This document shows, piece after piece, positions 17,830 through 32,801 of a stretch of 33,144 bases of DNA (position 1 is its first letter; each line of letters begins with the position of its first letter). Made by a program: the position numbers and the translations under genes. The stretch comes from Pararhodobacter sp. (GTDB lineage Bacteria; Pseudomonadota; Alphaproteobacteria; Rhodobacterales; Rhodobacteraceae): NCBI GenBank assembly GCA_020832665.1, contig JAFIEG010000044.1, positions 1 through 33,144 on the forward strand, read 5' to 3'. Below the pieces are notes generated by a model that was not told the origin of the DNA, did no database searches, and saw only the letters and a list, made by a program, of their open reading frames with translations.

Positions 17830-19017
17830 TCAGAACGGATCGGTCAGCGGCACCCAGCGCCCGTCCTGCACCTGATCCACCCGCACCAGTTCCGGCATGG
17901 CGTGGTTGTCCTCGAATCCAAGCTCGGTGAAGGTGGTGAAATCGGCGTGCCGCGTGGCGCGCGCGGCTTCGACAAAGCTGTCGGCGCTCAGATCGCGCCC
18001 GGCCGCTTCCAGCGCATCGATGAACCACGAGGTATAGGACCAGGCATTGGCCGCGTTCTCGTCGGCATCCACGCCGTAGGTCTCGGCGAAATCCGCCAGC
18101 CATGCCCGCGCATCGGCATCCTCGGTATCGGGCCCGTGCAGCTGCCAGCCGCCGATACCGTAAAGGCCCTCGACCTCGTCACCGCCCAACCGGGCCACCA
18201 GCGTGGCGCGGCCCGGAATGGCAGTAAGCACGCGCACGCCATCCCAGTCGAGCTTCTTGACCTCACTCATCACGCCCACGGTTTCGCGGATGATGGTGCC
18301 GGCAATGACCAGTTCCACCCCGGCCGCGCGCATCCGCGCCACCTGGCTGGAAAAGTCGATGTCGCCGGGCCGATAGGCCGCCTCGGCCACCACCTCGCCG
18401 GCGCCGGCCTCGGCCAGCCCCATGGTGACCCCGCCGCGGATCAGATCGCCGAACGGACCCTCCTGGTAGATCACGCCGATCCTCTCCACCCCCCATTCAT
18501 TGATCGCCCAGGCCAGCGCGCGCCCGGTGGTGGTGTGGTAGTTCTGCACGGTGGTGAACAGATAGGGGCTGTTCCCGGCCACCTGCTGCATGACGTTCGA
18601 AGCCGCCCAGGGCGCAAAGACAATGCGCCCGGCCTCGGTTGCCATGCCCACGGTAGCGGCATTGGTGCCCGAGCCGAAGGGGTTGAGAATGCCGAACACC
18701 TCATCCGAGCGGATCAGCTTTTGCGCGGCGCGAACGGCCAGCTGCGGTTGGCTGCCATTGTCCTCGACAATCAACCTGATGCGGCGGCCATGAATGCCGC
18801 CGGCCTCGTTGGCGCGGTCGATGCGCATCTGCATGGCGTTGCGCAGCATCGGCATGCCGGCGGCAACCGGGCCGGACAGGTCGAGATGCGTGCCGATGAC
18901 GATCTCGTCATCATGCACCCCCGAGGCGCGCGCACGCCCGGTGCCAAAGCCCAGCGACGAGCCTACCGCCAGCGCCGCGGCGCTGCTGGCAAGCATGGAA
19001 CGACGGTTCAGTTTCAT
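17830..19017 (-). CDS. LivK-type ABC transporter substrate-binding protein, Tat-exported
   Basis: A 395-residue periplasmic binding protein of the branched-chain amino acid/amide family (type I, two-lobe). The N-terminus NRRSMLASSAAALAVG is a twin-arginine signal, with cleavage probably after ARA near residue 31. The mature part begins DDEIVIGTHLDLSGPVAAG, and GGIHGRRIRLIVEDNGSQP is also typical of LivK proteins. Members of this family carry amino acids, but also aromatic acids, amides and urea, so the ligand is open. The ATG at 19017 follows GGGAGG closely. It is the last gene of the minus-strand cluster and presumably feeds LivHMGF. The Tat signal suggests export after folding. Confidence 0.9.
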   Translation of the reverse strand: MKLNRRSMLASSAAALAVGSSLGFGTGRARASGVHDDEIVIGTHLDLSGPVAAGMPMLRNAMQMRIDRANEAGGIHGRRIRLIVEDNGSQPQLAVRAAQKLIRSDEVFGILNPFGSGTNAATVGMATEAGRIVFAPWAASNVMQQVAGNSPYLFTTVQNYHTTTGRALAWAINEWGVERIGVIYQEGPFGDLIRGGVTMGLAEAGAGEVVAEAAYRPGDIDFSSQVARMRAAGVELVIAGTIIRETVGVMSEVKKLDWDGVRVLTAIPGRATLVARLGGDEVEGLYGIGGWQLHGPDTEDADARAWLADFAETYGVDADENAANAWSYTSWFIDALEAAGRDLSADSFVEAARATRHADFTTFTELGFEDNHAMPELVRVDQVQDGRWVPLTDPF

Positions 19018-19083
19018 TCTTTCCTCCCTTGGTGAATGATCGCCGACGGTTAGTTCTGCCTTCTGCCTGCCCCGACTACCGCC

Positions 19084-20922
19084 TCAGACGGGATACATGC
19101 CATCGATGAGCGCGGCGTATTTCTGCGCGATCACCTTTCGCTTGAGCTTCATGGTGGGGGTCAGCTCCTCGTCCTCGGCGGTGAGCAACTCGCCAAGGAT
19201 GCGGAAATCCTTGATCTGCTCGACCCGCGCCAGCATCAGGTTGGCCGCCTCCACCTCGCCACGGATCAACTCTATCACCGCCTGCGCCCGCGTCAGGCTG
19301 GCAAAATCGGTGTAGGGAATCGCCTGCTCGCGGGCGAACCGCGCGACATGCTCCTGATCGATCATGACGAGCGCAGTCAGAAAGCGCCGTGCCTCGCCGA
19401 TGACCACGGCATCGGTGATATAGGGGCTCATCTTCAGCAGGTTCTCGACCTGGCTGGGGGTGATGTTCTTGCCTCCGGCGGTGACGATGATGTCCTTGAT
19501 CCGGTCGCGGATCGCCAGATAGCCATCGCCATCGATGGCGCCGCAATCGCCGGTGCGCAGCCAGCCATCGGGGGTGATCGTCTCGGCGGTCTTTTCCGGG
19601 TTGTTCCAGTAACCGACAAAGACATTCGGCCCGCGCACCAGAATCTCGTCGGCCTCGCCGATCGATATCTCGGTGCCCCCGGCCTTGCGCCCGGCCCAGC
19701 CCAGCCTGATGCCGCCCTTCGGCGTGGCGGTGCAAAAACCCGTTGTCTCGGTCATGCCGAAAGCCTCGCGCAGTTCCACCCCGATCGACAGGAACCAGCG
19801 TATCAGATCGGGCGGCACGGGCGCGGCACCGGTAAGCGCGCTCTTCACATTCTGCAGCCCCAGAAAGATGCGGATATTGCGCAAGGCCACATGGCGCAGG
19901 GCGCGCGCCGGCAAGGACAGCGGCGGTGGCGCCACGCCCTTCAGCCGCGCCTCGACCTGCGGCTTGCCCAGATCCAGCGCCCGCCCATAGGCCCAGCGCG
20001 CCGGGCCAATCGCATCGCGCATGAAGAGCGTCACCGCCGAATGCATCTTCTCCCAGAACCGCGGCGGCGCGAAAACCACATGCGGCGCCACCTCGCGGAT
20101 GTCGTTCATCACCGTGCCGCTGTTTTCGGGAAAATGCACCACCAACCCCACCGCCAGCGGGTTGAACACGCTCGCCATGCGCTCGGCGATATGACAAAGC
20201 GGCAGAAAGGACAGCGACTTGTCGCCGGGCTCGATATCCAGATATTCCGGCGCGCAGGACATCTGGAAAACCAGATTGGCATTGCTGATCATCGCCCCCT
20301 TGGGCGCGCCGGTGGTGCCCGAGGTATAGACCAGAAACGCCAGATCATCGGGCCGACCGGCATCGATCGCGGCCTCGAAATCATTCGCCCGCGTCTCGGC
20401 CAGCTTGTGACCACGGGCCAGGAAATCATCGAAGAAGCTTACCGCCGGATCGGCAAAACCGCGCAGACCCTCGCGCTCCATCACCACGATATGCAGCAGG
20501 CGCGGACAACGTTCGCGCACCGCCAGCGCCTTGTCGAGCTGCTCCTGGTTCTCGACAAGCAGAACCCGCGCGCCCGAATCGTCCAGAATATGATGCACCT
20601 GAAAGGCCGAGGATGTCGGATAGATGCCGTTGCCGGCAAAGCCCATGCATTGTGCGCCGATATCGGCATACAGCCATTCGGGCCGGTTCTCGGCCAGCAC
20701 GCAGACGATATCGCCCCGCTCCAACCCCAGATCGGCCAGCGCCAGCCCGATGGCGCGGGCATTGGCGTAATATTCGCGCCAGGAAACCGTCTGCCAGAGC
20801 CCGCGCGCCTTGCGCCTGAGCGCCGGCGCCTCGCCCCATTCGGCCACCCGCGCGCGAAACACCCGCGCCGGTGTGTCCTGGCCCAGAAAGACCTGCGGCG
20901 CCTGACGTGCCTGCATGTTCAT
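19084..20922 (-). CDS. AMP-forming long-chain acyl-CoA synthetase family protein
   Basis: A 612-residue acyl-CoA synthetase of the long-chain (FadD15/FACL) branch. The phosphate loop is VYTSGTTGAPKGAM (residues 198-211). Further motifs are SFLPLCHIAERM, REAFGMTETTGF, GWLRTGDCGAIDGDGYLAI, DRIKDIIVTAGGKNITP and the C-terminal LTPTMKLKRKVI with the probable catalytic lysine. It activates a carboxylic acid to its CoA thioester. A gene of this kind set between Liv transporter genes usually suggests activation of the imported acid rather than bulk fatty acid metabolism. I chose ATG at 20922; TTG at 20940 or ATG at 20916 are alternatives. It is separated from livF by 118 nt holding an extragenic repeat, and from livK by 66 nt. 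Confidence 0.9.
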   Translation of the reverse strand: MNMQARQAPQVFLGQDTPARVFRARVAEWGEAPALRRKARGLWQTVSWREYYANARAIGLALADLGLERGDIVCVLAENRPEWLYADIGAQCMGFAGNGIYPTSSAFQVHHILDDSGARVLLVENQEQLDKALAVRERCPRLLHIVVMEREGLRGFADPAVSFFDDFLARGHKLAETRANDFEAAIDAGRPDDLAFLVYTSGTTGAPKGAMISNANLVFQMSCAPEYLDIEPGDKSLSFLPLCHIAERMASVFNPLAVGLVVHFPENSGTVMNDIREVAPHVVFAPPRFWEKMHSAVTLFMRDAIGPARWAYGRALDLGKPQVEARLKGVAPPPLSLPARALRHVALRNIRIFLGLQNVKSALTGAAPVPPDLIRWFLSIGVELREAFGMTETTGFCTATPKGGIRLGWAGRKAGGTEISIGEADEILVRGPNVFVGYWNNPEKTAETITPDGWLRTGDCGAIDGDGYLAIRDRIKDIIVTAGGKNITPSQVENLLKMSPYITDAVVIGEARRFLTALVMIDQEHVARFAREQAIPYTDFASLTRAQAVIELIRGEVEAANLMLARVEQIKDFRILGELLTAEDEELTPTMKLKRKVIAQKYAALIDGMYPV

Positions 20923-20950
20923 CGCCCCCACCCGCGCCAATCGCCGCCCT

Positions 20951-21012: not shown

Positions 21013-21040
21013 TGCCCCGCCACCAGCATTGCAAGCCGTT

Positions 21041-21811
21041 TCATCGCCATGTCCGCCGCCTCTTCCAGCGCTGCGCCGTGCCGCTTTCGCCGACCAGCGA
21101 GCCGCCGCCCAGATAGGCCTCGCGCACATCGGCCTTCTCGCTGAGCGCCGCGCAGCTGTCATGCGCCACCACCCGGCCCAGCTCCATGATGTAGCCGATA
21201 TCGCCATGCTCCAGAGCCACGGCGGCGTTTTGCTCGACCACCAGCATGGCGGTGCCGGTTTCGTCGCGAATGCGGCTGACGATGGCGAAGATCTCGCGCG
21301 TCAGCCTCGGCGCCAGCCCCAGGCTGGGCTCGTCGAGCATCAACAGCTTCGGCGCCGACATGAAGGCGCGGCCGATGGCCAGCATCTGCTGCTCGCCCCC
21401 CGAAAGCAGCCCGGCATGCTGGCGTTCGCGCTCGCGCAGGCGCGGGAACCAGCCATAGACGCGCTCCAGATCGCGCGCCACATTGTCGCGGTCGCGCCGC
21501 GCATAGGCCCCCATGCCCAGGTTTTCGGCCACCGAAAGAAACGGATAGACCTGCCGCCCCTCGGGCACCAGCACCATGCCGCGCCGGCAGATGGCGTCGG
21601 GGTCAAGCCGCTGTGTTTCCTCGCCGCGAAACAGCACCTGCCCCTTGAACGGGTCGATGACGCCGGCGAGCGTGTTCAGGAGCGTCGTCTTGCCGGCGCC
21701 ATTGGCGCCCAGCACGGCCACGATCTGGCCCTCATCGACCTTGAGATTCACCCCCTGCATGGCCACGATCGGGCCATACCAGGTTTCCAGATTGCGCACT
21801 TCCAGCAGCAT
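21041..21811 (-). CDS. livF: LivF-type ABC transporter ATP-binding protein
   Basis: A 256-residue cytoplasmic ATPase of the branched-chain amino acid/amide ABC importer family. Walker A GANGAGKT is at residues 35-42, signature LSGGEQQMLAIGRA at about 136-149, Walker B LLMLDEPSLGL at 156-166 and the switch His region VVEQNAAVALE further on. VPEGRQVYPFLSVAENL is the typical LivF Q-loop area. An extra tail of about 25 residues follows AYLGG and ends Arg-rich; LivF proteins usually stop close to that motif. The start is 3 nt beyond the livG stop, so translation is probably coupled. Confidence 0.93.
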   Translation of the reverse strand: MLLEVRNLETWYGPIVAMQGVNLKVDEGQIVAVLGANGAGKTTLLNTLAGVIDPFKGQVLFRGEETQRLDPDAICRRGMVLVPEGRQVYPFLSVAENLGMGAYARRDRDNVARDLERVYGWFPRLRERERQHAGLLSGGEQQMLAIGRAFMSAPKLLMLDEPSLGLAPRLTREIFAIVSRIRDETGTAMLVVEQNAAVALEHGDIGYIMELGRVVAHDSCAALSEKADVREAYLGGGSLVGESGTAQRWKRRRTWR

Positions 21812-21814
21812 CGC

Positions 21815-22579
21815 TCAGCCCCCCAGATAGGCGGCGATCACGCCGGGATGGTTTTGCACCTCTTCGACCGTGCCCTCGGCCAGCACCGCGCCCTGCGCCA
21901 TGCAGATCACCCGGTCGGCCACCGCATTGACCAGCGACATGTCGTGCTCGACCATGACCACGGTGATGCCCAGATCGGCGCGAATATCCTCGATCCAGAA
22001 AGCCAGGTCGCGCGTCTCTTCCGGATTCAGCCCCGAGGCGGGCTCATCGAGAAACAGCAATTCGGGCTGCGTGCACAGCGCCCGGCCCAGCTCGACCACC
22101 TTGCGCACGCCATAGGGCAAGCCCGCGATCAGCGCGTTGCGCCAGGGCGAAAGCTCCAGAAACTCGATCACCGCCTCGACCTGGGCGCGGTGGTCCTCTT
22201 CCATCCGCGTCAGCGCCGGGGTGCGCAGCAGCTGCTGCCACCAGCGCCCCTGATCGAAGCGCTGCCGGCCCAGCATCAGATTGTCGAGTACGGTGGCGTT
22301 CTCGAACAGCTCGATATTCTGATAGGTTCGCGCCAGCCCCAGATGCGCGATCCGGTGGCGCGGCACGCGCCGCAAATCGGCACCCTTGAAGTGCATCTCG
22401 CCGCCCGAGGCGTTGAACACCCGCGTCACCAGGTTCAGCATCGAGGTCTTGCCGGCGCCGTTGGGGCCGATCACCGCCAGCACCTCGCCAGGCTGCACCG
22501 TCATGCTCAGGCCCGATATCGCCTTCAGCCCGCCGAAATGCAGCGACACGTTGCGCAGTTCCAGAAGCGGCGCGTTCAT
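21815..22579 (-). CDS. livG: LivG-type ABC transporter ATP-binding protein
   Basis: A 254-residue ATPase partner of LivF. Walker A GPNGAGKT (residues 38-45), the LivG-type replacement signature LPYGVRKVVELGRAL (154-168), Walker B LLFLDEP (174-180) and the switch region VVMVEHDMSLV. The segment GLARTYQNIELFENATVLDNL is characteristic of LivG. Its ATG overlaps the livM stop by 4 nt (ATGA). Confidence 0.94.
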   Translation of the reverse strand: MNAPLLELRNVSLHFGGLKAISGLSMTVQPGEVLAVIGPNGAGKTSMLNLVTRVFNASGGEMHFKGADLRRVPRHRIAHLGLARTYQNIELFENATVLDNLMLGRQRFDQGRWWQQLLRTPALTRMEEDHRAQVEAVIEFLELSPWRNALIAGLPYGVRKVVELGRALCTQPELLFLDEPASGLNPEETRDLAFWIEDIRADLGITVVMVEHDMSLVNAVADRVICMAQGAVLAEGTVEEVQNHPGVIAAYLGG

Positions 22580-23652
22580 TTGTCACGCTCCGATTTCATG
22601 TAGGCTTTCTGCCGGCGGAAGGTGTCGCGCCGGTAAAGCGGAAAGCTCTGGATGAGCGCGCGCAGCTTCAGCCAACGACCGTTGAGCCCGCGCGGCTCGA
22701 AGAGCACGAAGAAGGCCAGGATGGCACCGAAGACGAACAGCTCGAGCCCGAACTGGCGCGCGACCACATCGGGCAGCACGGCCTTGAGCCGCGAGATGGC
22801 CACCGGCAGAACCCCGATCACCACCGCCCCCATGATTGCCCCGCGCATCGAGCCCAGCCCGCCGATGACCACCATCAGCACCAGCTCCAGCGACAGAAGC
22901 AGGGTAAAGCCGTCAGGAGTCAGATAGCCGATGTGATGCGCCATCAGCGCCCCGGCCAGCCCCGTCACCCCCGCCGACAGGCCGAAGGCGCCGATCTTGA
23001 CGCGCTTGACATTGATCCCCAGCCCGGCTGCCGCGGCCTCGGAATCGCGCACGCCGACAAAGGCGCGCCCCAGCCCCGAGCGCAACAGGTTCAGAAGCCC
23101 CAGCAGCACCACCACCGCCACCGCGAGGCAGAAATAATAGAACGCCGTGGGCGAGGCGAGCGACAGGCCGAACATCTCGGGGCGCGGCACCGACAGGCCC
23201 ATGAAACCGCCGGTGACCCCGCGCCACATGCCGATCAATTGCTCGACGATGATGGCAAAGGCCAGCGTGACCATGGCCAGATAAAGCCCGTGCACGCGAA
23301 TGGCCGGGATGCCCACCACCAGCCCCGCCGCCGCCGCAATCAGCGCCGCCAGCGGGATCGAGGCCGCCATCGGCACGCCCTGGCGCATCAGCCAGGCATG
23401 GGCATAGGCGCCGATGGCGACAAAGGCGGCATGGCCCAGCGATATCTGGCCGGTAAAGCCGGTGAGCAGCATCAGCCCCATCGCGGCGATGCACAGGATC
23501 AGCACATAGGCCATCTCGCCCAGAATGTAGTTCGAGGCGAAGAAGGGCGCGGCCAGCAAAAGCGCGGCCAGCAATCCGTAATTGGCCCAGTCCTCGGGGT
23601 GGCGCAGCAGCGCGAAGCCCTGGCGGTATTCGGTATCATAGGCAAAGCGCAT
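22576..23652 (-). CDS. livM: LivM-type ABC transporter permease
   Basis: A 358-residue inner-membrane permease with about 8-10 hydrophobic segments. The N-terminal cytoplasmic stretch has about 25 residues. The family hallmark GFTGQISLGHAAFVAIGAY lies at about residues 66-85. GIPAIRVHGLYLAMVTLAFA and GGLGSMRGAIMGA are other conserved parts, the latter being the cytoplasmic coupling loop that contacts the ATPase. The C-terminus is basic. It starts 3 nt after the livH stop and overlaps livG by 4 nt. It forms the transmembrane channel together with LivH. Confidence 0.94.
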   Translation of the reverse strand: MRFAYDTEYRQGFALLRHPEDWANYGLLAALLLAAPFFASNYILGEMAYVLILCIAAMGLMLLTGFTGQISLGHAAFVAIGAYAHAWLMRQGVPMAASIPLAALIAAAAGLVVGIPAIRVHGLYLAMVTLAFAIIVEQLIGMWRGVTGGFMGLSVPRPEMFGLSLASPTAFYYFCLAVAVVVLLGLLNLLRSGLGRAFVGVRDSEAAAAGLGINVKRVKIGAFGLSAGVTGLAGALMAHHIGYLTPDGFTLLLSLELVLMVVIGGLGSMRGAIMGAVVIGVLPVAISRLKAVLPDVVARQFGLELFVFGAILAFFVLFEPRGLNGRWLKLRALIQSFPLYRRDTFRRQKAYMKSERDK

Positions 23653-23655: not shown

Positions 23656-24540
23656 TCAGACCCTCCGCCCATGGGCTTCGCCCAGGATGCCGCGCGGGCG
23701 CAGGATCAGCACGCCGATCAGCACCAGATAAGCGGCGATATCCTTGAAGCCATGCGGCAGATAGACCCCGGCATATTGCTCGATCAGCCCGATCAGCAGC
23801 CCGCCGAGAATGGCACCGGGGATCGAGCCGAAGCCCCCCAGCACGATAGCCGCCAGCGCCTTGAGCGTGACCAGCCACAGCGCGGTATCGACCAGCGCGA
23901 TGGGTGCCAGGAACACGCCGGCCACCGCCGCCGTCGCCCCGCCCAGCGCAAAGACCAGCGAGTTCACGCGCTTGACCTGCACGCCGTTGAGATAGGCGGC
24001 AAGCTGGTTCTGGCTCGATGCCTGCATGGCCACGCCCAGCCGCGTGTTGCGAAAGAACAGCCACAGGCCCAGCGTTATGGCCAGCACCACGCCCATGATG
24101 ACCAGCTCGATATTGGCGAAGGAAACCCCGAAAACCTGCGTCGATTGCCCCGACCAGGGCGTACGGTAGCTTTGCGATTCGGGGCCGAAGATCATGCTCA
24201 CCAGGCCGCGGATCATGAAGGCCAGCGCGATGGTCAGCATGACGCCGGAAAACTGCGGCTGGCCGGCGATGCGGCGAATGACCAGGGCATCGAGCCCATA
24301 GGCAAAGGCGCCCATCAGCGCCATGACGATGAGCAGCGCCGCCCAGAAGGGCAGCCCCATCAGCGCGATCAGCGCCCAGGCGATGAAGGCGCCGAGCACC
24401 AGAATGTCGCCATGAGCGAAATTCAGCACCTCGGTGGCCTTGTAGATCAGCACGATGCCCAGCGCGATCAGCGCATAGATGGCGCCGACGGCGATGCCGT
24501 TCATCGTGATCTGCGCAAAGAGCGCAAGTTCGGGGCTCAT
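23656..24540 (-). CDS. livH: LivH-type ABC transporter permease
   Basis: A 294-residue inner-membrane permease. The hallmark IYKATEVLNFAHGDILVLGAF lies near the N-terminus, and the coupling-loop motif GGFGSIPGAILGGLLIG near the C-terminus. About eight membrane segments are visible. The ATG at 24540 follows GAGGA by 7 nt and overlaps the stop of the upstream regulator gene by 4 nt (ATGA). The frame runs 20 codons further upstream inside the regulator gene, but that start lacks support. It partners with LivM. Confidence 0.94.
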   Translation of the reverse strand: MSPELALFAQITMNGIAVGAIYALIALGIVLIYKATEVLNFAHGDILVLGAFIAWALIALMGLPFWAALLIVMALMGAFAYGLDALVIRRIAGQPQFSGVMLTIALAFMIRGLVSMIFGPESQSYRTPWSGQSTQVFGVSFANIELVIMGVVLAITLGLWLFFRNTRLGVAMQASSQNQLAAYLNGVQVKRVNSLVFALGGATAAVAGVFLAPIALVDTALWLVTLKALAAIVLGGFGSIPGAILGGLLIGLIEQYAGVYLPHGFKDIAAYLVLIGVLILRPRGILGEAHGRRV

Positions 24541-25487
24541 GTCGTTTCCTCTGCGGGGGGTTCGAATTCCACTTCCCAGGGCAGAAGCGGCTGGTGGCAA
24601 TGGCTGCAGGCGGCGCGCGCGGCGAAGGGGTGGCCGCAGGCGCGGTGCACCGGCGCTATCGAGCTGGGCTCGTTGAAATGGTGCTCGCTGGCCCAGGCCG
24701 CGAAACAGGTGATGTAGCCGAACAGCGCGCGGCTGGCCGGGGTGAGCCTGTAGCGGCGGCGGCGGCCGTCATCGGGGTCTGGCTCGGCGCGCAGAAGCCC
24801 GGCCTCGACCATGCCTGAGAGCCGGCGCGCCAGCACCGAGGGGCCGATCTGCAGCACCTGCGACAGCTCGTCGAAATAGCGGCAGCCCAGCGTGACCGCC
24901 GAAACGATGAGCAGTGCCCAGCGGTCGAGCCGCAGGCCCAGGCTGCCCGCCGCGCCCTCGCCCACCGGCACGCGCGGGGTGCGCGCGGGTGCCGTGCCGT
25001 CATGCGGCAACCGGCGGTTGGGGCGCAGGCGAAAGCGCAAATCATGCATGGTGACCTGCTCGCCGCAGGCGCCGCAGGTAAGCTCGGGCAGGAAGGCGTG
25101 ACCGCAACTCTTGTGCTTGAGCCGGCGCGGCAGCGGCAGGTCATGCTCGCCGAAGCGGTGTTCCCAATCCCAGACCATGAGCACCGCGTCATACATCGCC
25201 AGCCCCTTGCGGGTGAGGTGATAGGCATGGCGCAGCGGGCGCTGGCTGTAGGGGCGCGGGCGCATCATGTCCATCGCCACCAGCGCCTTGAGCCGGTCTG
25301 ACAGCGTATGGCGCGGAATGCCCAGCTTCGCCTGAAAGTCATCGAAGCGCTTGATGCCCATGAAGGCGCCCATGAGCACCTGCACCGTCCAGCGGTCGCC
25401 CAGCAGGCGCAGCCCGTGATTGAGCGTAGAGGTCAGGATGGCCTCGCGCATCAATTCCAGGTTCAGGGGCTCGGCTTGGGCGTTCAC
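24537..25487 (-). CDS. Double HxlR-type winged-helix regulator with two zinc-ligand motifs
   Basis: A 316-residue protein made of two similar halves. Each half has an HxlR-like winged helix: residues about 20-110, with LLGDRWTVQVLMGAFMGIKRF and LSDRLKALVAMDMM; and about 180-270, with LRLDRWALLIVSAVTLGCRYF and LARRLSGMVEAGLL. Each is followed by a short cysteine/histidine cluster with identical spacing: HxxCGHx7CxxC at H125, C128, H130, C138, C141 and again at H281, C284, H286, C294, C297. HxlR regulators normally act as dimers of a single domain of about 110 residues, so this looks like a built-in dimer. The zinc role is inferred from the ligands. The start is a GTG at 25487 behind GAGGG, 3 nt after the thiolase stop, and it overlaps livH by 4 nt. 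It is the only regulator within the cluster and the likely controller of it. Confidence 0.85.
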   Translation of the reverse strand: MNAQAEPLNLELMREAILTSTLNHGLRLLGDRWTVQVLMGAFMGIKRFDDFQAKLGIPRHTLSDRLKALVAMDMMRPRPYSQRPLRHAYHLTRKGLAMYDAVLMVWDWEHRFGEHDLPLPRRLKHKSCGHAFLPELTCGACGEQVTMHDLRFRLRPNRRLPHDGTAPARTPRVPVGEGAAGSLGLRLDRWALLIVSAVTLGCRYFDELSQVLQIGPSVLARRLSGMVEAGLLRAEPDPDDGRRRRYRLTPASRALFGYITCFAAWASEHHFNEPSSIAPVHRACGHPFAARAACSHCHQPLLPWEVEFEPPAEETT

Positions 25488-25490: not shown

Positions 25491-26672
25491 TCACACCCTC
25501 TCGATGATCATGGCCGAGGCCAGCCCGGCCGCGCCGCACAGCGCGATCAGCGCGCGCTTGCCGTCGCGGCGTTCCAGCTCGTCAAGCGCCATCGACAGCA
25601 GCGCCGATCCGGTCGAGCCCATGGCATGGCCAAGCGCGATGGCGCCGCCATTGACGTTCAGGCGCTCCATCCCCACGCCCATATGGCGCGAGAAATGCAG
25701 CATCAGCGCGGCGAAGCTTTCGTTGATCTCAAACAGGTCGATATCGTCGGCGCCCAGCCCCGCGCGCTTGAGCACCGCCTGTGCCGCATCGACCGCGCCG
25801 GTCAGCGCCAGCGTGCGATCCACCGCCAGCTCTGCCGAGGCCAGGATGCGCGCGCGCGGCTTCAGCCCGGCACGTTCGGCCGCCGACGGGCTGGCCACCA
25901 GCACCGCCGAGGCGCCATCGGCCATGGCCGGGGAATTGCCGGCGTGGTGAACATGTTCCACCGCTTCCAGCCCGTATGCCTTCGCCAAAAGCGCGTCGAT
26001 GCCGTATTTCGCGCCCAACTCGGCAAAGGCGGGCTCCATCCCCGCCAGCTTTTCGGCACTGGTGCCGGGGCGCGGGGTTTCATCGGTATCCAGCCCGTCC
26101 ACCGACACAAGGCCGGCACAGCGCCCGCCCTCGCGCGCGGCCACCGCGCGCGCCTGGCTCTCGGCGGCGTATTCGTCGCATTCGGCGCGGGTGAGGCCCT
26201 CCATCGTTGCCACCAGATCGGCGGCGATGCCGATGGGCACCAGGCGCTGCTCGCGCTGAAAGTCGAAATCATGCGTCAGCGGGCCCTTGTCGGATGCCAT
26301 GGGCACGCGCGACATGCTCTCCACCCCGCCGCCCAGCGCCAGCATGTCGCCCTCCAGCGCCGAAAGCGCGGCCAGCCGCACCGCCGACAGGCCCGAGGCG
26401 CAGTAGCGGTTCACGCTCAGCCCCGGCACAGCGTCGCCCAGCCCCGCCGCCAGACCGCCCAGGCGCGCGATATTGGCGCCCTGCTCGCCGGTCTGGGTGA
26501 CGCAGCCGATGATCATCTCGCCCGGCGCGGCCTCGGCCAGCGCGTAGCGATCAGACAGCGCGCGCAGCGGCGCAGCCAGCAGATCGACCGGCTTGACGCC
26601 GGCCAGCGCGCCCTTGGCATTGCCCCTTCCGCGCGGCGTGCGCACCGCGTCGATGATGAGCGCTTGCGCCAT
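25491..26672 (-). CDS. Acetyl-CoA acyltransferase / thiolase
   Basis: A 393-residue thiolase with all catalytic residues visible: nucleophile Cys91 in VNRYCASGLSAVRL, His349 in NVNGGAIALGHAMGSTG and Cys379 in LIALCGAAGLASAM. It also has FEINESFAALML. It either cleaves 3-ketoacyl-CoA to acetyl-CoA plus a shortened acyl-CoA or runs the reverse condensation. In this setting cleavage is more likely. Two adjacent ATGs (26675 and 26672) are possible; the second has better spacing (7 nt) from GGAGG. It lies 53-56 nt after the flavoprotein gene and 3 nt before the regulator gene. Chain-length preference cannot be told. Confidence 0.92.
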   Translation of the reverse strand: MAQALIIDAVRTPRGRGNAKGALAGVKPVDLLAAPLRALSDRYALAEAAPGEMIIGCVTQTGEQGANIARLGGLAAGLGDAVPGLSVNRYCASGLSAVRLAALSALEGDMLALGGGVESMSRVPMASDKGPLTHDFDFQREQRLVPIGIAADLVATMEGLTRAECDEYAAESQARAVAAREGGRCAGLVSVDGLDTDETPRPGTSAEKLAGMEPAFAELGAKYGIDALLAKAYGLEAVEHVHHAGNSPAMADGASAVLVASPSAAERAGLKPRARILASAELAVDRTLALTGAVDAAQAVLKRAGLGADDIDLFEINESFAALMLHFSRHMGVGMERLNVNGGAIALGHAMGSTGSALLSMALDELERRDGKRALIALCGAAGLASAMIIERV

Positions 26673-26728
26673 CATGCGTCCTCCCGTTTCAACGCGCCGT
26701 TGCCCGGCGCTTATTTCTGCGGCCCCGA

Positions 26729-27673
26729 TCAGGCCTCGACCGCGCCGAACGCCATCAGACGGCTGCGCGCGGCGCGAAATTCATTCTCCAGCCGGTCCAC
26801 GACCCGCGCCACTGGCTCGACTTCGCGCACCGCGCCCACGCCCTGCCCCGCCGACCAGACATCGGCCCAGCGCTTGCCCTTGAAGGACTGGCCGCTGTCA
26901 TAGGCGCGGTTTGGCGCGTCGGGCATGTTGTCAGGGTCAAGCCCATTGGCGACGAGCGAGGGTTTCAGCCAGCTTGCCGGCGTGCCGGTGATGCCGGCGC
27001 TGACCAGCAGATCCTCTATCTGCGCTTCCACCACCATGTCGCGATAGGCTTGCGGCGCCATGCTTTCAGGCGTGGCGATGAAGCGCGTGCCCATATAGAC
27101 GGCATCAGCCCCCGCAGCCAGCGCGCCGGCCACGCCCGCGCCATCGGTGATGCCGCCGCCGATAATCACTGGCCCGTCGAAGAATTCGCGCACCGCGCTG
27201 ACAAAGGCAAAGGGCGACAGCGCGCCGGTATGCCCGCCGGCGCCGGCGCAGATGCAGGCCAGCCCGTGCGCGCCGGCCGCGACCGCCTTTCTGGCAAGCG
27301 CCACGGTGGTGACATCGGCAAATACCTTGCCGCCATAACCCTCGACCACCGCCACCGCCGGTTTCGGCGAGCCCAGCGCGGTGACCACGAAGGGCGGGCG
27401 GTGCTTTGCCACCAGCGCCAGATCCTCGGGCAGGCGGGCGTTCGATCTGTGCGTGACCAGATTGGCGCACCAGGGTGCCGCGCCCGCGGTTTCGCGCGCG
27501 ATGCGGGTCATCCATTCATCAAGCTTGTCGATGCTGCGCGCATTGGGCGTGGGAAAGGCGCCGATGATGCCGGCCTTGCAGGCGGCGATCACCAGATCAG
27601 GCCCCGATATCAGAAACATCGGCGCGGCAAAGACCGGCAGGCGCAGCGAGGGCAGTTGCAGGGCGGGGTGCAT
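26729..27673 (-). CDS. Nitronate monooxygenase family flavoprotein
   Basis: A 314-residue TIM-barrel FMN protein of the nitronate monooxygenase (2-nitropropane dioxygenase) family. The N-terminal LRLPVFAAPMFLISGPDLVIA, the catalytic-His region CAGAGGHTG (H148) and the FMN phosphate site GGGITDGAGVAGALAAGADAVYMGTRF are visible. Members oxidise propionate-3-nitronate or other nitronates, and the fold is shared with FabK-type enoyl reductases. The physiological substrate here is therefore uncertain, and a reductase or oxidase role on a pathway intermediate is possible. Its ATG shares one base with the upstream TAA stop, showing tight coupling to the aldehyde dehydrogenase gene. Confidence 0.88.
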   Translation of the reverse strand: MHPALQLPSLRLPVFAAPMFLISGPDLVIAACKAGIIGAFPTPNARSIDKLDEWMTRIARETAGAAPWCANLVTHRSNARLPEDLALVAKHRPPFVVTALGSPKPAVAVVEGYGGKVFADVTTVALARKAVAAGAHGLACICAGAGGHTGALSPFAFVSAVREFFDGPVIIGGGITDGAGVAGALAAGADAVYMGTRFIATPESMAPQAYRDMVVEAQIEDLLVSAGITGTPASWLKPSLVANGLDPDNMPDAPNRAYDSGQSFKGKRWADVWSAGQGVGAVREVEPVARVVDRLENEFRAARSRLMAFGAVEA

Positions 27674-29358
27674 TAGCTGCCCTCCTTCACCGGGCGGCGC
27701 GACTGCGCCACGGCAAAGCGCGGCGCCACGAAGGCCAGATTGGTCAGCGTGGCATTGCCCGCCGGGTTCAGCCCGGTGACATGGTAATCGCTATAGGCGG
27801 CGGCAAAGTTCAGCGGCATCGCCCCGGTCAGGTTGGTGGTGAGCTGCGCGCCGGCATTTGCGTAGGCTTCCTCGGCGCGGGCGATGAAATCCTCGTCGGT
27901 GGCGTAAAGGAATGCCGTCAGCCCGCCGCGCTCCTTCACATCTTGCGTGGCGCGGGAAAGCGCATCCTCGGCGCTGTCGCAGCGGATGACAAAGCTGATG
28001 GGGCCAAAACGCTCTTCGCCGTAAAGCTCGCGCGACTGGGGCGTGACCTGCAGCATCAACGGCGTGGCGGTGCGCGCGGAGGGGAAATCGGGGTGTTCAT
28101 AGGGCCGGCTTTCCAGCAGCACGCGGCCCTGCGCCGCGCCCTCGTCGCGCATCTGTTCCATCAAGGCCAGCGTCTGCGGCGCCTGGATGGTGGCCATGAT
28201 CATCGCTGCCTTGCGCGGGTCTTCGACCAGCCGCGCCACGGCATCGGCCAGCCTTTGTGCCACCTCGTCAAAGCCAACCTTGCCCTGCGGCGTGTCCACC
28301 CCATCGGCGGGCACATAGACATTCTGCGGGCTGGTGCACATCTGCGCCGAGAACATGCACATGGTGGTGGCCAGCGAACGAAGCGCCGCGTCAAGGTCAT
28401 CAGCGCCTTGCAAGACCACGGTGTTGCAGCCCGCGGTTTCGGTAAAGGCGATGGCGGGATGGGCGTTTTCCTCGACCCATTTGCCGAAACGGGTGGAGCC
28501 GGTGAAATCGACGATGGCGCATTTGGGGTGCTTGATCAGCGCCTTGCCCAGCGGCTGCGCCTTCGTATCCAGCGCCATCGTTACCAGATTGGGGTCGAAC
28601 CCGGCTGCTTGCAGCACCTGCCGGCACACGCGCACGGTGATCGCCATGGGCAGCACCGTATCTGGGTGGGGCTTGACGATGACAGCATTGCCGGTGGCAA
28701 GGCTGGCCAGCATCGAGGGCCAGGCGTTCCAGCTTGGAAAACTGGCGCAGGCAAAGCACACCGCCACCCCGCGAGGGACAATGCGATAGGTCTTTTCCAG
28801 CCGGATTTCCGAAGGGCCGAAGCGGCGCTCCCAGCCGGCTTTCGGCGTGACCGCGCGCATGGCTTCCTCGGCATAGACCAGCGCCTCGATCCCGCGGTCG
28901 AGCGCATTCACACCCGAGCCGGCATAGGCCATGTTGTAGCTTTGCCCGGCGGTGTGCATGACGGCATGCACCAGCGTGAACAGATGCTCGCGGTAGAGCG
29001 TATCCAGCACCTCCATCAGCGCGCCCAGCCGCGCCTCGATCGGCGCGCGTGCCCAGGCCGGCATGGCGGATTGGGCGGCATCGAACAGCGCATCGATATC
29101 GGCCTGCGGATAGGTGATGCCCAGCGGTGCTTGCGTATAGGGCGAGATCTCTTCACCCAGCCGCCCGATGGTGCCGGGTTGATCAAGATCGAAGGGCTGG
29201 CCCAGCATGGCCTCGTATGCCGCCTTGCCCGAAGCCGCCGCGGCCTCGGCATTCGGATAGGCCTTGGGCATCTCGGGATAGGGCGACCAGCAATGGCGCT
29301 CGCGGCAGGCCTCGCGCGCGCGCTCCAGCGTGGGCAGGTGCTTGTCAAAGAGCATCAT
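27673..29358 (-). CDS. PaaN-like aldehyde dehydrogenase
   Basis: A 561-residue NAD(P)-type aldehyde dehydrogenase matching the PaaN group named from phenylacetate degradation. The nucleotide-binding lysine is in GNAVIVKPHPDT (K229), the general base Glu in AFTETAGCNTVVL (E307) and the catalytic Cys in FSAQMCTSPQNVYVP (C341). The C-terminal MaoC-like hydratase domain of E. coli PaaZ is absent; this is the shorter, hydratase-free form. No other paa genes (paaABCDE, paaK, paaG) are in the window, so phenylacetate as substrate is doubtful and oxidation of another aldehyde is likely. The start ATG at 29358 follows GGAGG by 5 nt and overlaps the preceding stop by 4 nt. Confidence 0.88.
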   Translation of the reverse strand: MMLFDKHLPTLERAREACRERHCWSPYPEMPKAYPNAEAAAASGKAAYEAMLGQPFDLDQPGTIGRLGEEISPYTQAPLGITYPQADIDALFDAAQSAMPAWARAPIEARLGALMEVLDTLYREHLFTLVHAVMHTAGQSYNMAYAGSGVNALDRGIEALVYAEEAMRAVTPKAGWERRFGPSEIRLEKTYRIVPRGVAVCFACASFPSWNAWPSMLASLATGNAVIVKPHPDTVLPMAITVRVCRQVLQAAGFDPNLVTMALDTKAQPLGKALIKHPKCAIVDFTGSTRFGKWVEENAHPAIAFTETAGCNTVVLQGADDLDAALRSLATTMCMFSAQMCTSPQNVYVPADGVDTPQGKVGFDEVAQRLADAVARLVEDPRKAAMIMATIQAPQTLALMEQMRDEGAAQGRVLLESRPYEHPDFPSARTATPLMLQVTPQSRELYGEERFGPISFVIRCDSAEDALSRATQDVKERGGLTAFLYATDEDFIARAEEAYANAGAQLTTNLTGAMPLNFAAAYSDYHVTGLNPAGNATLTNLAFVAPRFAVAQSRRPVKEGS

Positions 29359-29795
29359 GCGCGCCTCCAGATCAGCCGGTGGTGGCGGGATATGTCGCTG
29401 CCGGGAATGGTATCGCTGGCCGAAAGCGTGAGAAGATCGCCATCAAGCGCCATGTCGCGGCGCTGTTCGCTGCCCACGAAATTGGGGTTCAGCGCATGGG
29501 TCACGCGATGCGTCACGCAACCCGCGCCATGGTCAATCTCGTAGCGCCCGGCATAGTGGAAATAGCTTTCAAACGCCGCCAGCCGCTCGCCCTCGGGGGC
29601 GCTGCGCACGCTGGCGCTTGAAAGCCGCCCGCGCCCGGCGCGCGCGATCACCGCCGACATGTGCCCGTCATCGGTATAGACCAGAAGGCCCGAGGCATCA
29701 GCGCCATAAGGGTAGCTGGGCGCGCGCCCGTCGCCATAGGCGATCTCCCATCGCTCCAGTTTCCAGGCGCCGGCAAGGGGGTTGGCACCGCTCAT
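29355..29795 (-). CDS. Lipocalin-like domain protein
   Basis: A 146-residue protein resembling the lipocalin-like (Lipocalin_5 type) family: LAGAWKLERWEIAYGDGR at the start, YPYGADASGLLVYTDDGHMSAVI, then FHYAGRYEID and SDISRHHRLIWRR at the end. No signal peptide is present, so it should be cytoplasmic. Such proteins are small beta-barrels; some bind or transform hydrophobic molecules. Its start overlaps the oxygenase stop and its stop overlaps the aldehyde dehydrogenase start, each by 4 nt, so it is translated as part of the same unit. A role in holding or isomerising the cleavage product is a guess from position. Confidence 0.72.
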   Translation of the reverse strand: MSGANPLAGAWKLERWEIAYGDGRAPSYPYGADASGLLVYTDDGHMSAVIARAGRGRLSSASVRSAPEGERLAAFESYFHYAGRYEIDHGAGCVTHRVTHALNPNFVGSEQRRDMALDGDLLTLSASDTIPGSDISRHHRLIWRRA

Positions 29796-31270
29796 GCCGC
29801 CTGCGCCGCGTCAAGCTGCGCCTGACGCACCCAGCAGGAATGAAAGCCATGCGGCACGCGCTGCGGCACGATCACCCGCGCCAGCGGCCCCGCCGAGATA
29901 TCCTTGGCGTCATGCACCCAGACTTCCGAGCGCTCGGCCAGCCCGTTCCACACGAAGCCGACGATATAGCCGTCATCCTCTTCCACCGCGCCGTCGCGCG
30001 GGGCGAAGGGCGCCTCGGAAAACCAGAACCCCTCGCCGGGATGGCAGGCAACGGCGCCGCCGGTTTGCAGATCATATTTCACCAGCCCGGCGAAATGCGG
30101 CTGCTCCAGCGTGCGCGGGCGGCCCATCAGCACGTTATAGGTGTAGCGGTTCTTGCGACCCTGCCAGCCCATGTTGATCATCGGAAATTCGGTGTTGAGG
30201 ATGTCATCGACCACCCCCTCGCGCGCCTCGCCGGTGGCCAGATTCATGCGCCACTGATACATCTCGTAATCAGTGCCCTGCGTGCCGATGGTGAACAGCA
30301 GCCGGCGCACATCGAGGCTGCCGTCATAGCCGCGCGGCATGGCATAGGGCGTGCCGATCATCACCACCTCGGTCTCGCCCCTGGCGTTCACCTCTTCCCA
30401 GGCATTGGCGACATGCAGCATGTAGCGCGGCTCGAACTCGAACCATTTCGGCGCCCCACCGGCACGCGGGATCACGGCATAGCGCGTGGGCCAGTCCTGC
30501 CGGAACTCAAGGCTGTAGCGCCCGGCCTCCAGCGCCGCCGGATTGTTGATCAGCGGGAAGTCATGCAGGATGACATGGTTTTCGGTCATCCCCATGTCAT
30601 GCGGCAGGCGCGGGCCCGGCAGCGGCACATCCTGCAACAGCTTCAGCGCGCCATCCGCGCCGATGACGCCGAAATGCATGTAGGGCGGGCGGTTGCCATA
30701 GGCGAAGAAGAGAAACTCGCCCGTATGCTCGTCAACGCGCGAATGCGCCGAAATCTGCAAACCCACCAGCCGCGGATCATGTTCCAGCTTGCCCAGCGTG
30801 GCCAGGGTGAACGGGTCCATCACATAGGCCGCGCCGCCGCGATACCAGGTGGCATAGAGCCGGCCATTGTGGAACACCACATCGGTGTTGGCCACATTCT
30901 TCATGGCGTCATCGGGCAGCGCGCCCTCGGGCATGCGGTCCTTCAGCCCGGGCCAGAGCGCGCGCCCGGCCTCACGCTCGGCGCGCAGCCCCTCGGTGAG
31001 CACATAGCGGTTGCGATAGCTGGCCTTGCCGCCCTGGATATGCACGGCATGCAGCATGCCGTCGCCATCGAACCAGTGATACTTGCCATGCGGCCCATGC
31101 GCCGGCGAGGGACCGTTGCGCACATACATGCCGTTCAGATCATCGGGCAATTCGCCGATCACCTCCAGATCATGCGCTTCGATCTCGCGATGGATGGGCG
31201 CGAAAGGGCCCTGCATCGAGGCATCGGGCACGAACCAGTTGGAGCGGTCGGGGAAGCGATCGAGTCCCAT
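29792..31270 (-). CDS. Carotenoid/stilbene cleavage oxygenase (RPE65 family), second copy
   Basis: A 492-residue member of the carotenoid cleavage oxygenase family: non-heme Fe(II) enzymes that split a C=C bond with O2 to give two carbonyl compounds. All four iron-ligand histidines are visible: H176 in ISAHSRVDEHTGE, H224 in LPHDMGMTENHV, H286 in YMLHVANAWEE and H477 in PHGFHSCW. The family start MYVRNGPSPAHGP and WFDGDGMLH are also present. Substrates in the family include carotenoids, apocarotenoids, lignostilbenes and isoeugenol-type phenylpropenoids. It is 43 nt downstream of a paralogue and overlaps the lipocalin-like gene by 4 nt. Confidence 0.92.
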   Translation of the reverse strand: MGLDRFPDRSNWFVPDASMQGPFAPIHREIEAHDLEVIGELPDDLNGMYVRNGPSPAHGPHGKYHWFDGDGMLHAVHIQGGKASYRNRYVLTEGLRAEREAGRALWPGLKDRMPEGALPDDAMKNVANTDVVFHNGRLYATWYRGGAAYVMDPFTLATLGKLEHDPRLVGLQISAHSRVDEHTGEFLFFAYGNRPPYMHFGVIGADGALKLLQDVPLPGPRLPHDMGMTENHVILHDFPLINNPAALEAGRYSLEFRQDWPTRYAVIPRAGGAPKWFEFEPRYMLHVANAWEEVNARGETEVVMIGTPYAMPRGYDGSLDVRRLLFTIGTQGTDYEMYQWRMNLATGEAREGVVDDILNTEFPMINMGWQGRKNRYTYNVLMGRPRTLEQPHFAGLVKYDLQTGGAVACHPGEGFWFSEAPFAPRDGAVEEDDGYIVGFVWNGLAERSEVWVHDAKDISAGPLARVIVPQRVPHGFHSCWVRQAQLDAAQAA

Positions 31271-31313
31271 GCGGGATTCCTTTCCTTGTCAGATGCGCTT
31301 TGCAGCGACCGTA

Positions 31314-32801
31314 TCAGCCGCGCGGGCGGGCCAGAAGTCCGTCGCGGAAATCGGCGCCATTGGCCCAGCAGGAATGCGTGCCCGAGGCCAGCTGATGCGG
31401 CAGTTGCACCCGGCAGACCGGGCCATCCTCGAAGCGCTTGCAATCGATCAGGATCAGCTCCGACTTGCCGGTGCCCTCGTTGATGACGAAGCTCGCCAGA
31501 TAGCCGTCATCCTCTTCCGTTGCGCCGATTCGCGGGGCAAAGGGGGCCTCGGATGCAAACTGCCCCTCGGGCAGCACAATCTGCCAGCTTTCGCCGGTGT
31601 GCAGGTCATGCTTCACATAGCCGTTGAAGATGAACCAGCCCGGCACCTGCACCGCCGAATAGGCATAGCGATAGGGGCGGCCGGCGTATTTCTGGTTGAT
31701 CATGCCGAATTCGAGGATGCGGTCATCGAGCCGTTCCTCGCGCGTTTCGCCGGTCTTGAGGTTGAAGCGCCAGCGATGCAGCTTGGTGCCCATCTTGTGC
31801 TGATCAAGATAGGACATCATGCGCTCGTAACCCGGCTTCGCGCCCTCGTAATTCGTGGGCATCGGGTCTTCCTGGAAATAGCCGTCGAGCACGATCTCGT
31901 CGCCCTCTTCATAGGCGTTGAGAAAGTGCAGAACGAAGGTTGGCGCGGCCTCAAACCAGATGATGTCTTCCGGCCCGCCCCGGCGCGGGATGACGGCGAA
32001 TCGCGATTTCATGTCGGGATAGAACCGCACCACATGCTTGCCGCGAGCCAGCGTCTCGGGGTCCCAGAACAGCGGGAAATCGTTGAGGATGGCGTAGTTC
32101 TCGGTAAAGGCCATGTCATGCGGCAGGCGCGGTCCCGGCAGCGGCACGGGCACATAATGCACCAGCCGGTCATAGCGATCGACAACGCCGTAATGCATGT
32201 AGGGCGGCTTCTTCGAGTAGTTGAAGAACAGCAATTCGCCGGTGTGCTCGTCAACCTTGGTATGGGCCGAGATGCCATCCTCGGGCGACCAGTCGGGCGG
32301 GCCTGACTGATCGAGCGTCTCCGGGTCCAGCCGGTAGCCCTCGCCGCACTGGAAATAGGTAGTCAGCGCCTGGCCGGCATGCACCACGACATCGGTCGAC
32401 GAGGCATCCTTCAACCCGCCATGCGCGCCCCAGCCCGGCCGCTTCGACAGGCGCGGGTCTTCCATCAGCCCGGCCCAGAGCCGGCCACCCGCTTCCATTT
32501 CCGCACGCAACCCGGCGGTGTCGATGAAGCGGTTGCGATAGCTGACCTTTCCATCGCGGATCAGAGCCATGTGCAGCATGCCGTCGCCATCAAAAGGGTG
32601 ATACCGGCTCAGCGACTGGTGCAGCGGGTTTTGCGTGTTGCGCAGATAGACACCGTCGATATCGCGCGGCACCGCGCCCTCGATGACCGGCAGTTCCTCG
32701 GCATCCACCTCTTCATGCAGGGGCGCCCAGGGGCCTTGCAGATAGGGATGATCACCCGGATCGATGGACCCGTCCAGACGACGGACAAGCTTGACTGACA
32801 T
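31314..32801 (-). CDS. Carotenoid/stilbene cleavage oxygenase (RPE65 family), first copy
   Basis: A 495-residue paralogue of the next gene. The four Fe(II) histidines are H180 in ISAHTKVDEHTGE, H228 in LPHDMAFTENYA, H292 in FVLHFLNAYEE and H476 in SGTHSCWANG, the last embedded in a slightly different sequence from the usual PHGFHG. VYLRNTQNPLHQSLSRYHPFDGDGMLH marks the family N-terminus. The two copies share the overall frame but diverge clearly, suggesting different substrates or cleavage positions. The start ATG at 32801 sits just behind GGGGGAG; a longer frame upstream enters the A+T-rich promoter region and is rejected. It is the first gene of the long minus-strand cluster. Confidence 0.92.
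   Translation of the reverse strand: MSVKLVRRLDGSIDPGDHPYLQGPWAPLHEEVDAEELPVIEGAVPRDIDGVYLRNTQNPLHQSLSRYHPFDGDGMLHMALIRDGKVSYRNRFIDTAGLRAEMEAGGRLWAGLMEDPRLSKRPGWGAHGGLKDASSTDVVVHAGQALTTYFQCGEGYRLDPETLDQSGPPDWSPEDGISAHTKVDEHTGELLFFNYSKKPPYMHYGVVDRYDRLVHYVPVPLPGPRLPHDMAFTENYAILNDFPLFWDPETLARGKHVVRFYPDMKSRFAVIPRRGGPEDIIWFEAAPTFVLHFLNAYEEGDEIVLDGYFQEDPMPTNYEGAKPGYERMMSYLDQHKMGTKLHRWRFNLKTGETREERLDDRILEFGMINQKYAGRPYRYAYSAVQVPGWFIFNGYVKHDLHTGESWQIVLPEGQFASEAPFAPRIGATEEDDGYLASFVINEGTGKSELILIDCKRFEDGPVCRVQLPHQLASGTHSCWANGADFRDGLLARPRG

Follow-up and report, generated by a model that had tools for sequence, protein, structure and literature searches.

A thirteen-gene Pararhodobacter cluster joining two carotenoid-family oxygenases to a Liv-type importer, probably a catabolic operon of a modular type

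Gene content and layout of the cluster

The window analyzed here is a stretch of 33,144 nt from a 4.19-Mb draft genome of Pararhodobacter sp. (assembly GCA_020832665.1, contig JAFIEG010000044.1, positions 1 to 33,144). It contains thirteen minus-strand open reading frames (ORFs) in unbroken succession from 17830 to 32801, designated in the order of transcription CCO1, CCO2, LIP, PAAN, NMO, THL, HXLR, LivH, LivM, LivG, LivF, ACS, and LivK. Relatives keep the same gene order, so the arrangement is more than chance. Judging from sequence and gene context, the thirteen genes probably form one catabolic operon, with the reaction logic proposed below, and belong to a widespread, modular, and apparently undescribed type of pathway.

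The first two genes, CCO1 (31314..32801, 495 residues) and CCO2 (29792..31270, 492 residues), encode paralogous proteins of the Fe(II) carotenoid-oxygenase family (RPE65, PF03055), with Pfam E-values of 2.4e-123 and 7.6e-124, respectively. LIP (29355..29795, 146 residues) is a small lipocalin-like protein recognized by Pfam (Lipocalin_5, PF13924), PAAN (27673..29358, 561 residues) is a PaaN_2-type aldehyde dehydrogenase, NMO (26729..27673, 314 residues) is an FMN protein of the NMO/FabK superfamily, and THL (25491..26675, 394 residues) is a thiolase of the acetyl-CoA acyltransferase type by Pfam and NCBIfam. HXLR (24537..25487, 316 residues) is a tandem HxlR-type regulator, in which Pfam finds two HxlR stretches and the sequence shows CxxC pairs. 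Domain searches identify the rest as the permeases LivH (23656..24540) and LivM (22576..23652), both BPD_transp_2; the ABC ATPases LivG (21815..22579) and LivF (21041..21811); the AMP-forming acyl-CoA synthetase ACS (19084..20922, 612 residues; AMP-binding); and the periplasmic binding protein LivK (17830..19017, 395 residues; Peripla_BP_6), whose twin-Arg leader was recognized by eye. With its binding protein, two permeases, and two ATPases, the Liv-type ABC importer is complete. An earlier interpretation of the window from its letters and ORFs (the sequence-only reading) had named the oxygenases, the PaaN-like dehydrogenase, the thiolase, the acyl-CoA synthetase, and the Liv importer, all of which Pfam and NCBIfam confirm, but had left the tandem-HxlR and lipocalin-like genes unnamed.

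Neighboring genes overlap by 4 nt at CCO2/LIP, LIP/PAAN, HXLR/LivH, and LivM/LivG and by 1 nt at PAAN/NMO, while gaps of 3 nt separate THL from HXLR, LivH from LivM, and LivG from LivF. The ORF calls thus bear out the thirteen consecutive genes, five overlaps of 1-4 nt, and three 3-nt gaps that had been described. The remaining gaps measure 43 nt at CCO1/CCO2, 53 nt at NMO/THL (26676..26728, the site of an additional gene in six collinear relatives), 66 nt at ACS/LivK, and 118 nt at LivF/ACS, counted from the ATG start of ACS. From the overlaps and the conserved gene order we infer co-transcription.

A terminator scan places a G+C-rich hairpin downstream of the last gene, at 17766..17793 on the minus strand, with 11 pairs, 10 of them G-C. 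The 93-nt stretch that contains it (17743-17835) has a folding z-score of -4.07, and none of 200 shuffles folds as well, in agreement with the strong hairpin previously noticed at the tail. However, the hairpin has a weak T-run, and for 17700-33144 the scan yields 10 terminator-like sites, compared with 8.8 +/- 3.1 for shuffled sequence. At the head of the cluster, the TTGACA that had been read as a promoter is present in an A+T-rich region, but the scan found no full promoter-like site (0, against 2.3 +/- 1.9 in shuffles), and a promoter there is a guess. A further hairpin, short, G+C-rich, and trailed by TTTTCC, lies at 33001-33015 on the minus strand, some 200 nt upstream of CCO1, and may end a neighboring transcript.

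Conservation in the genus and spread beyond it

We searched 17 genomes of the same genus and, for LivK, 60 genomes in total. A CCO1 orthologue with 82-85% identity is found in seven of the 17. Six genomes (G005, G008, G009, G013, G016, and G017) have all thirteen genes collinear, together with one extra gene; G001 has twelve of the thirteen, lacking CCO1 and the extra gene; and in G004, a 64%-complete draft, CCO1/CCO2 and LivK lie on separate contigs. The gene order matches in Pararhodobacter zhoushanensis, P. oceanensis, and P. aggregans as far as the 10-kb flanks extend. The extra gene of the six relatives, located between NMO and THL, encodes an SCP2-type thiolase of about 402 residues, of which the copy in locus L032 scores above the cut-off of NF004936. 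It is absent from the cluster here and in G001, and its nearest copies in the host genome, on contigs C20 and C15, are 58% and 53% identical. The thirteen-gene set of the sequence-only reading is therefore kept in order in six of 17 same-genus genomes, but as part of a set of fourteen.

Orthologues of LivK (68-71% identity, E at most 1e-60) occur in the same eight genomes as the CCO genes and in no other of the 17; among the 60 genomes there is one further match, at 45%, in G036, outside the family. LivK and CCO orthologues are both present in 8/17 and both absent in 9/17 (Fisher p 4e-5, uncorrected for kinship). A check for relatives in which the oxygenases and the Liv genes occur apart thus came out against separation, both on these counts and on four betaproteobacterial loci, described below, in which CCO1 and Liv genes stand together. 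The same two results support the earlier view of the cluster as a unit of uptake plus catabolism.

Beyond the genus, CCO1-family proteins were sought in one genome per species, and the 80 best-scoring of at least 570 confirmed loci were examined. These 80 are a kin group that includes the Pararhodobacter clusters, and many are cut by contig ends; the counts are not independent. As controls we used 20 segments of 20 kb taken at round-number positions from six genomes, 16 of them in the genus, so that their taxonomy is unmatched to that of the test loci. With this proviso, partner genes were found near the 80 loci as follows: SCP2-type thiolase at 47, HxlR at 40, THL at 38, NMO at 31, ACS2 at 16, and PAAN at 11, compared with a single NMO and none of the other five in the control segments. 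At least two of the six partners accompany 47 loci, at least three accompany 33, and just one accompanies 19, while two partners are found in 0/20 control segments and one in 1/20. Clustering of predicted genes adds a DUF1295 protein, which is 5-alpha-reductase-like, in 40/80 loci.

Four loci in metagenome-assembled genomes (MAGs) of Betaproteobacteria (L044, L047, L048, and L051) combine CCO1 with Liv genes. The order in L044 is SCP2-HXLR-CCO1-DUF1295-SDR-THL-LivHMGF-ACS-LivK, and the run thiolase-LivHMGF-ACS-LivK is common to L044 and L047. In a Comamonadaceae MAG, L049 has CCO1-CCO2-LIP-PAAN up to the end of the locus, and LIP has counterparts in both L048 and L049. The CCO1 proteins of Pararhodobacter and of these Betaproteobacteria form one clade with support 1.0. 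Gammaproteobacterial loci (such as L109, L110, and L111) carry CCO1 with HxlR, thiolase, and SCP2-type thiolase, and the versions in Caulobacterales and sphingomonads add DUF1295, several SnoaL/LEH-like proteins, SDRs, a DapB-like protein, and MFS plus TonB components. In unannotated or unnamed loci the MFS and TonB labels, and some of the TTT, TRAP, and acyl-CoA-dehydrogenase labels, were read by eye from protein starts. At L067, L072, and L076, of which two are from Brevundimonas bullata and one from a MAG labelled Bordetella, the module stands beside an APH-type kinase, a label backed by Pfam on L067 only, and a gene that by eye looks acyl-CoA-dehydrogenase-like. Such a pair recalls the breakdown of 4-hydroxy acids by ACAD10/11.

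The importer varies between versions of the module. On contig 15 of the host genome, a second cluster holds HxlR, CCO, a hydrolase-like gene, NMO, CoA ligase, SCP2-type thiolase, and a TRAP transporter, and this TRAP version of the core is found in the host genome and in relatives (L017, L020, and L021, the last with its DctP confirmed). On host contig 29 (L018), a CCO is accompanied by an apparent TTT-type transporter, judged by eye. In G009 (L021, L022) and G016 (L025, L026), the TRAP version directly adjoins the Liv version, an arrangement suggesting that a single pathway can be entered at two points. On plasmids of Cupriavidus necator NH9 and C. basilensis DSM 11853, one strand encodes ALDH (aldehyde dehydrogenase)-SDR-MFS-TctC-thiolase-HTH (helix-turn-helix) regulator and the opposite strand NMO-CoA ligase-hydrolase-CCO-porin, and these modules include a TTT-type binding protein. 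On a Sphingopyxis granuli plasmid the set consists of an HTH regulator, MFS, CoA ligase, NMO, SDR, ALDH, hydrolase, TonB receptor, Rieske protein, CCO, and thiolase. Of the sources of the plasmid modules, one strain came from a 2,6-dichlorophenol enrichment and the others from soil and river sediment. CCO1 relatives of 53% identity were also seen on Cupriavidus megaplasmids, at L037 (Cupriavidus necator C39 plasmid p1) and L172 (pBB1); the one at L037 lies near a 74% match to the SCP2-type thiolase and a second CCO.

The oxygenases and their partner enzymes

PF03055 spans the full length of CCO1 and CCO2, which are 44% identical to each other, and both proteins belong on this evidence to the RPE65/CCO superfamily. 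The Fe(II) ligands of CCO1 (H180, H228, H292, and H476) are intact, and alignment shows all four His residues in CCO2 too. Over 95 aligned sequences the four positions are His in 95, 95, 95, and 94, the fourth His being missing in one. Of the three second-shell acidic residues, CCO1 (E364 and E418) and CCO2 keep two, but the third Glu is replaced by Gln151 in CCO1 and by Arg in CCO2. An extract of one study describes seven metal-site residues, the second-shell acidic trio included, as remarkably conserved across all characterized carotenoid cleavage dioxygenases (PMC8191317). The superfamily assignment of CCO1 and CCO2 rests on fold and other features, and the second-shell change is a variant site.

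This variation extends to the related proteins. We compared 99 related oxygenases, of which 80 come from the 80 loci (not always with partner genes close by) and 19 are additional. The position is occupied by Gln in 86, Arg in 8, Met in 3, Leu in 2, and Glu in none, and it lies beside a one-residue insertion relative to outsiders. All eight outsider oxygenases keep the Glu; they comprise two from Alphaproteobacteria, two from Streptomyces, and one each from Nostoc (trimmed to its last 480 residues), Martelella, Roseinatronobacter, and Cupriavidus metallidurans, the Variovorax protein of L167 not being included. Printed alignments show the Glu in LsdA, CCD1, and VP14 as well. Among the rows printed from the comparison, exceptions at the E418 position are Gln in the Sphingopyxis plasmid protein and Asp in the Nostoc outsider. 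In a phylogenetic tree no outsider falls inside the group of related oxygenases, whose monophyly has a support of 0.264.

Among characterized enzymes, the lignostilbene-alpha,beta-dioxygenases (LsdA, LSD4, and NOV1) resemble CCO1 and CCO2 in the RPE65/CCO fold, the four His residues, two of three second-shell Glu residues, and a Thr near the vacant site. They differ in the remaining second-shell residue, Glu-135, which corresponds to the Gln of CCO1 or Arg of CCO2 next to the one-residue insertion, and in gene context, which for CCO1 and CCO2 is CoA-dependent. They differ also in the phenol site: in LSD4, according to the same extract, Tyr-101 and Lys-134 bind the substrate 4-hydroxyl (PMC8191317). 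These positions are Met and Phe in CCO1, and in CCO2 they are Leu or Lys, and Trp or Tyr, depending on the alignment. The two NCBIfam models for lignostilbene dioxygenases give 199 and 218.7 bits against a cut-off of 800, and 174 and 190.5 bits against 650. Membership in this class was rejected, since the Tyr/Lys pair is absent and the scores are below the equivalog cut-offs. The model for 8'-apo-carotenoid 13,14-cleaving dioxygenase, NF052295, gives 220.8 and 229 bits, below its cut-off of 675.

Plant CCD1 (7vud/9m6z; 31% identity) is the top PDB sequence match (230 and 244 bits), and it has the lowest Foldseek E-value to the AlphaFold2 model of CCO1 (predicted local distance difference test score 90.7). 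Unlike CCO1 and CCO2, it keeps the second-shell Glu and is encoded outside any operon. Wild-type apocarotenoid oxygenase of Synechocystis (ACO), 24% identical to CCO1, also has Glu, but an engineered Glu150Gln mutant of it (5kjd) appears to match the natural Gln of CCO1, if Glu150 occupies, as we presume from the ligand order of the family, the position of Gln151.

PAAN scores 630.5 bits with TIGR02288, above the cut-off of 578.75; PAAN-type proteins in L092 and L110 pass as well, and the orthologue in L019 falls just short at 575.3 bits. In the plasmid records that were listed, 25 out of 37, the PaaNs share 43.9-46.7% identity with PAAN. It does not lie inside a paa operon, as the PaaA of this genome is on another contig, C68, where the phenylacetate epoxidase locus is adjoined by a weaker match to the PaaN model (68 bits, in a 695-aa frame). 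Because that locus is separate, PAAN need not serve phenylacetate. Elsewhere, PaaN_2 does accompany such genes, standing within the phenylacetate operon of Azospirillum and next to Liv genes in a phenylacetate locus of Paracoccus. The paa pathway of these organisms shares with our cluster a PaaN_2 dehydrogenase, a CoA ligase, nearby Liv genes, and, in Azospirillum, a thiolase; unlike it, the cluster has no paaABCDE epoxidase, PaaG, or PaaH. What PAAN and the paa-type PaaN_2 have in common is probably the ability to oxidize a chain aldehyde linked to CoA, because the PaaA locus is separate here and PaaN_2 is in the paa operon in Azospirillum.

Pfam places NMO in the nitronate-monooxygenase family, to which it had been assigned before, but in the PDB the best E-value, 9e-29, goes to FabK enoyl reductases, closely followed by 3bo9, a "putative nitroalkan dioxygenase," at 1e-28; entries named nitronate monooxygenase reach 6e-15 at best. 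It scores 113.5 bits with the FabK model, far below the cut-off of 453. We regard it as a probable enoyl-thioester reductase. The best NCBIfam model for ACS is FadD11, at 417 bits far under the cut-off of 950, and PDB matches of LivK and ACS gave no ligand hint.

A second catabolic-looking group was noted at the other end of the window, with a beta-keto acid cleavage enzyme (BKACE) at 188-1009 (-), a TetR regulator at 1262-1834 (+), an ACAS_N-domain AMP-binding protein at 3243-5162 (-) that by eye looks acetoacetyl-CoA-synthetase-like, and another acyl-CoA synthetase at 5388-7043 (+).

Proposed pathway, alternatives, and meaning

In the pathway we propose, LivKHMGF would import a small unsaturated acid, and the acyl-CoA synthetase would convert it to a CoA thioester. 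One or both of the Fe(II) oxygenases would cleave a C=C bond with O2, acting on the free acid or on the CoA ester, so that the cut end becomes an aldehyde or a ketone. The PaaN-type dehydrogenase would oxidize a CoA-linked intermediate at its aldehyde group, the FabK/NMO-like flavoprotein would reduce a conjugated enoyl thioester, and the thiolase would free short acyl-CoA units together with an SCP2-type thiolase, encoded by the adjacent gene in relatives and elsewhere in the host genome. The tandem-HxlR protein would control expression.

For the first substrate our choice is tentative. We lean toward a branched conjugated acid of apocarotenoid or norisoprenoid type, of the isoprenoid class, over 4-hydroxystilbene, because the Tyr/Lys pair of lignostilbene dioxygenases is absent, CCO1 is similar to CCD1, and relatives have SCP2-type thiolase and DUF1295 partners. 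The SCP2-type thiolases, DUF1295, and SnoaL/LEH-like neighbors of relatives would suit branched enone chemistry. Among the substrates put forward in the sequence-only reading (apocarotenoid acids, stilbenoids, or phenylpropenoid acids), the stilbenoids and the phenylpropenoids with a 4-hydroxyl are weakened, and stilbenoids become less likely, because the phenol-binding residues are not conserved. Abscisic acid was also considered. An extract of one paper reports that a Rhodococcus converts it to dehydrovomifoliol and that a Novosphingobium grows on it (PMC7996341). Cleavage at C2=C3 would yield dehydrovomifoliol, but no gene link was found, and this substrate is not claimed.

Several observations weigh against a single operon with this logic and substrate. 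None of the six partners is found at 14/80 CCO1-family loci, and 7 of these 14 are on loci over 21 kb. Five of the nine genus members without the cluster are drafts under 90% complete. The cluster has no gene for an enoyl-CoA hydratase or a hydroxyacyl-CoA dehydrogenase. DUF1295 was not found in the host genome, and the ring chemistry to which relatives point may therefore be irrelevant in this case. The PaaN_2 genes of the Azospirillum and Paracoccus phenylacetate loci also count on this side, as do, among the points given below, the Liv+ACS block without CCO, the small number of loci with Liv genes, the esterase- and hydrolase-type genes of L101 and L082, and the narrow Foldseek margin between CCD1 and the lignostilbene dioxygenases.

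An aromatic route, in which the oxygenases would cleave the propenyl or stilbene C=C of a phenylpropanoid, stilbenoid, or lignin-derived alkene and PAAN would oxidize an aromatic aldehyde, seems unlikely, although it draws on several facts. Lignostilbene dioxygenases initiate stilbene breakdown in Sphingobium, and Liv, TRAP, and TTT importers often transport aromatic acids. PaaN_2 and Liv genes stand together in the Paracoccus locus, and in two related clusters a tannase/feruloyl-esterase-family gene (L101) and a BD-FAE-type hydrolase (L082) point to aromatic esters. Foldseek E-values part CCD1 from the lignostilbene dioxygenases only slightly, and query-normalized TM-scores of CCO1 are 0.83-0.84 to LsdA and NOV1, equal to or higher than the 0.82-0.83 to CCD1. 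On the other side stand the replaced LSD4 residues in both oxygenases and scores some hundreds of bits under the lignostilbene models; moreover, a simple aromatic aldehyde would require neither a thiolase nor an enoyl reductase. Degradation of a terpenoid or steroid-like ring, with an oxygenase attacking a CoA-linked cyclic enone at a C=C bond of its ring or side chain and the ring-opened aldehyde being oxidized by PAAN as in phenylacetate degradation, would fit the location of PaaN_2 in paa loci and the DUF1295, SnoaL/LEH-like, and SDR proteins of relatives; in addition, flavoproteins of the NMO family (IpdC) handle CoA esters derived from rings during steroid degradation. We think it improbable: the host lacks a DUF1295 match, we know of no endocyclic cleavage by a CCO, and steroid ring-cleavage genes were not among the proteins scanned, though no search was aimed at them.

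Alternatively, the cluster might consist of at least two independent neighbors, in which case an operon for the oxygenases and the thiolase would adjoin a general Liv+ACS cassette that imports a different substrate. A Liv+ACS block without CCO does occur in one 20-kb control segment, L141, Liv genes at 50% identity or more are found at only 7/80 CCO1-family loci, and gaps of 118 and 66 nt precede ACS and LivK, respectively. This arrangement is rather improbable in view of the 4-nt HXLR/LivH overlap, the near confinement of LivK to the eight CCO-bearing genomes of the genus, and the single CCO1 clade in which Alphaproteobacteria and Betaproteobacteria alike combine Liv genes with CCO1. We take the importer to be a reusable cassette joined to the module, because the Liv+ACS block also exists on its own in L141. 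Biosynthesis or signaling, in which the oxygenases would convert endogenous carotenoids to an apocarotenoid, is very improbable. The genome has one SQS/PSY-family match (C54), but a dedicated importer, a CoA ligase, and a thiolase fit the breakdown of an outside compound, as do related modules on plasmids from enrichment, soil, and sediment.

The reading we prefer thus remains one catabolic operon for an imported unsaturated acid. The sequence-only reading knew of no described pathway with this combination, and we found no description of the gene combination or pathway in the open-licence literature, subscription papers not being covered. The enzyme families and the operon logic are known; novelty appears to lie in the pathway and in the subfamily of oxygenases. 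A broader proposal, which we regard as possible but doubtful, is that of a new class of catabolic pathway across Alpha-, Beta-, and Gammaproteobacteria, partly plasmid-borne and with interchangeable importers, built around an uncharacterized CCO subfamily that has Gln, Arg, Met, or Leu in natural replacement of a second-shell Glu, together with a one-residue insertion, and that cleaves C=C bonds in CoA-thioester intermediates.

If true, this pathway class could be a bacterial route for the mineralization of apocarotenoids. The recurrent module gives a testable role to one large group of oxygenases and a likely context to neighbors with doubtful names, such as nitronate monooxygenase and PaaN, and the clusters and plasmid-borne versions provide a set in which to seek the substrate. 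The altered second shell of the iron resembles a natural counterpart of the engineered mutant, and would test the role of that glutamate.

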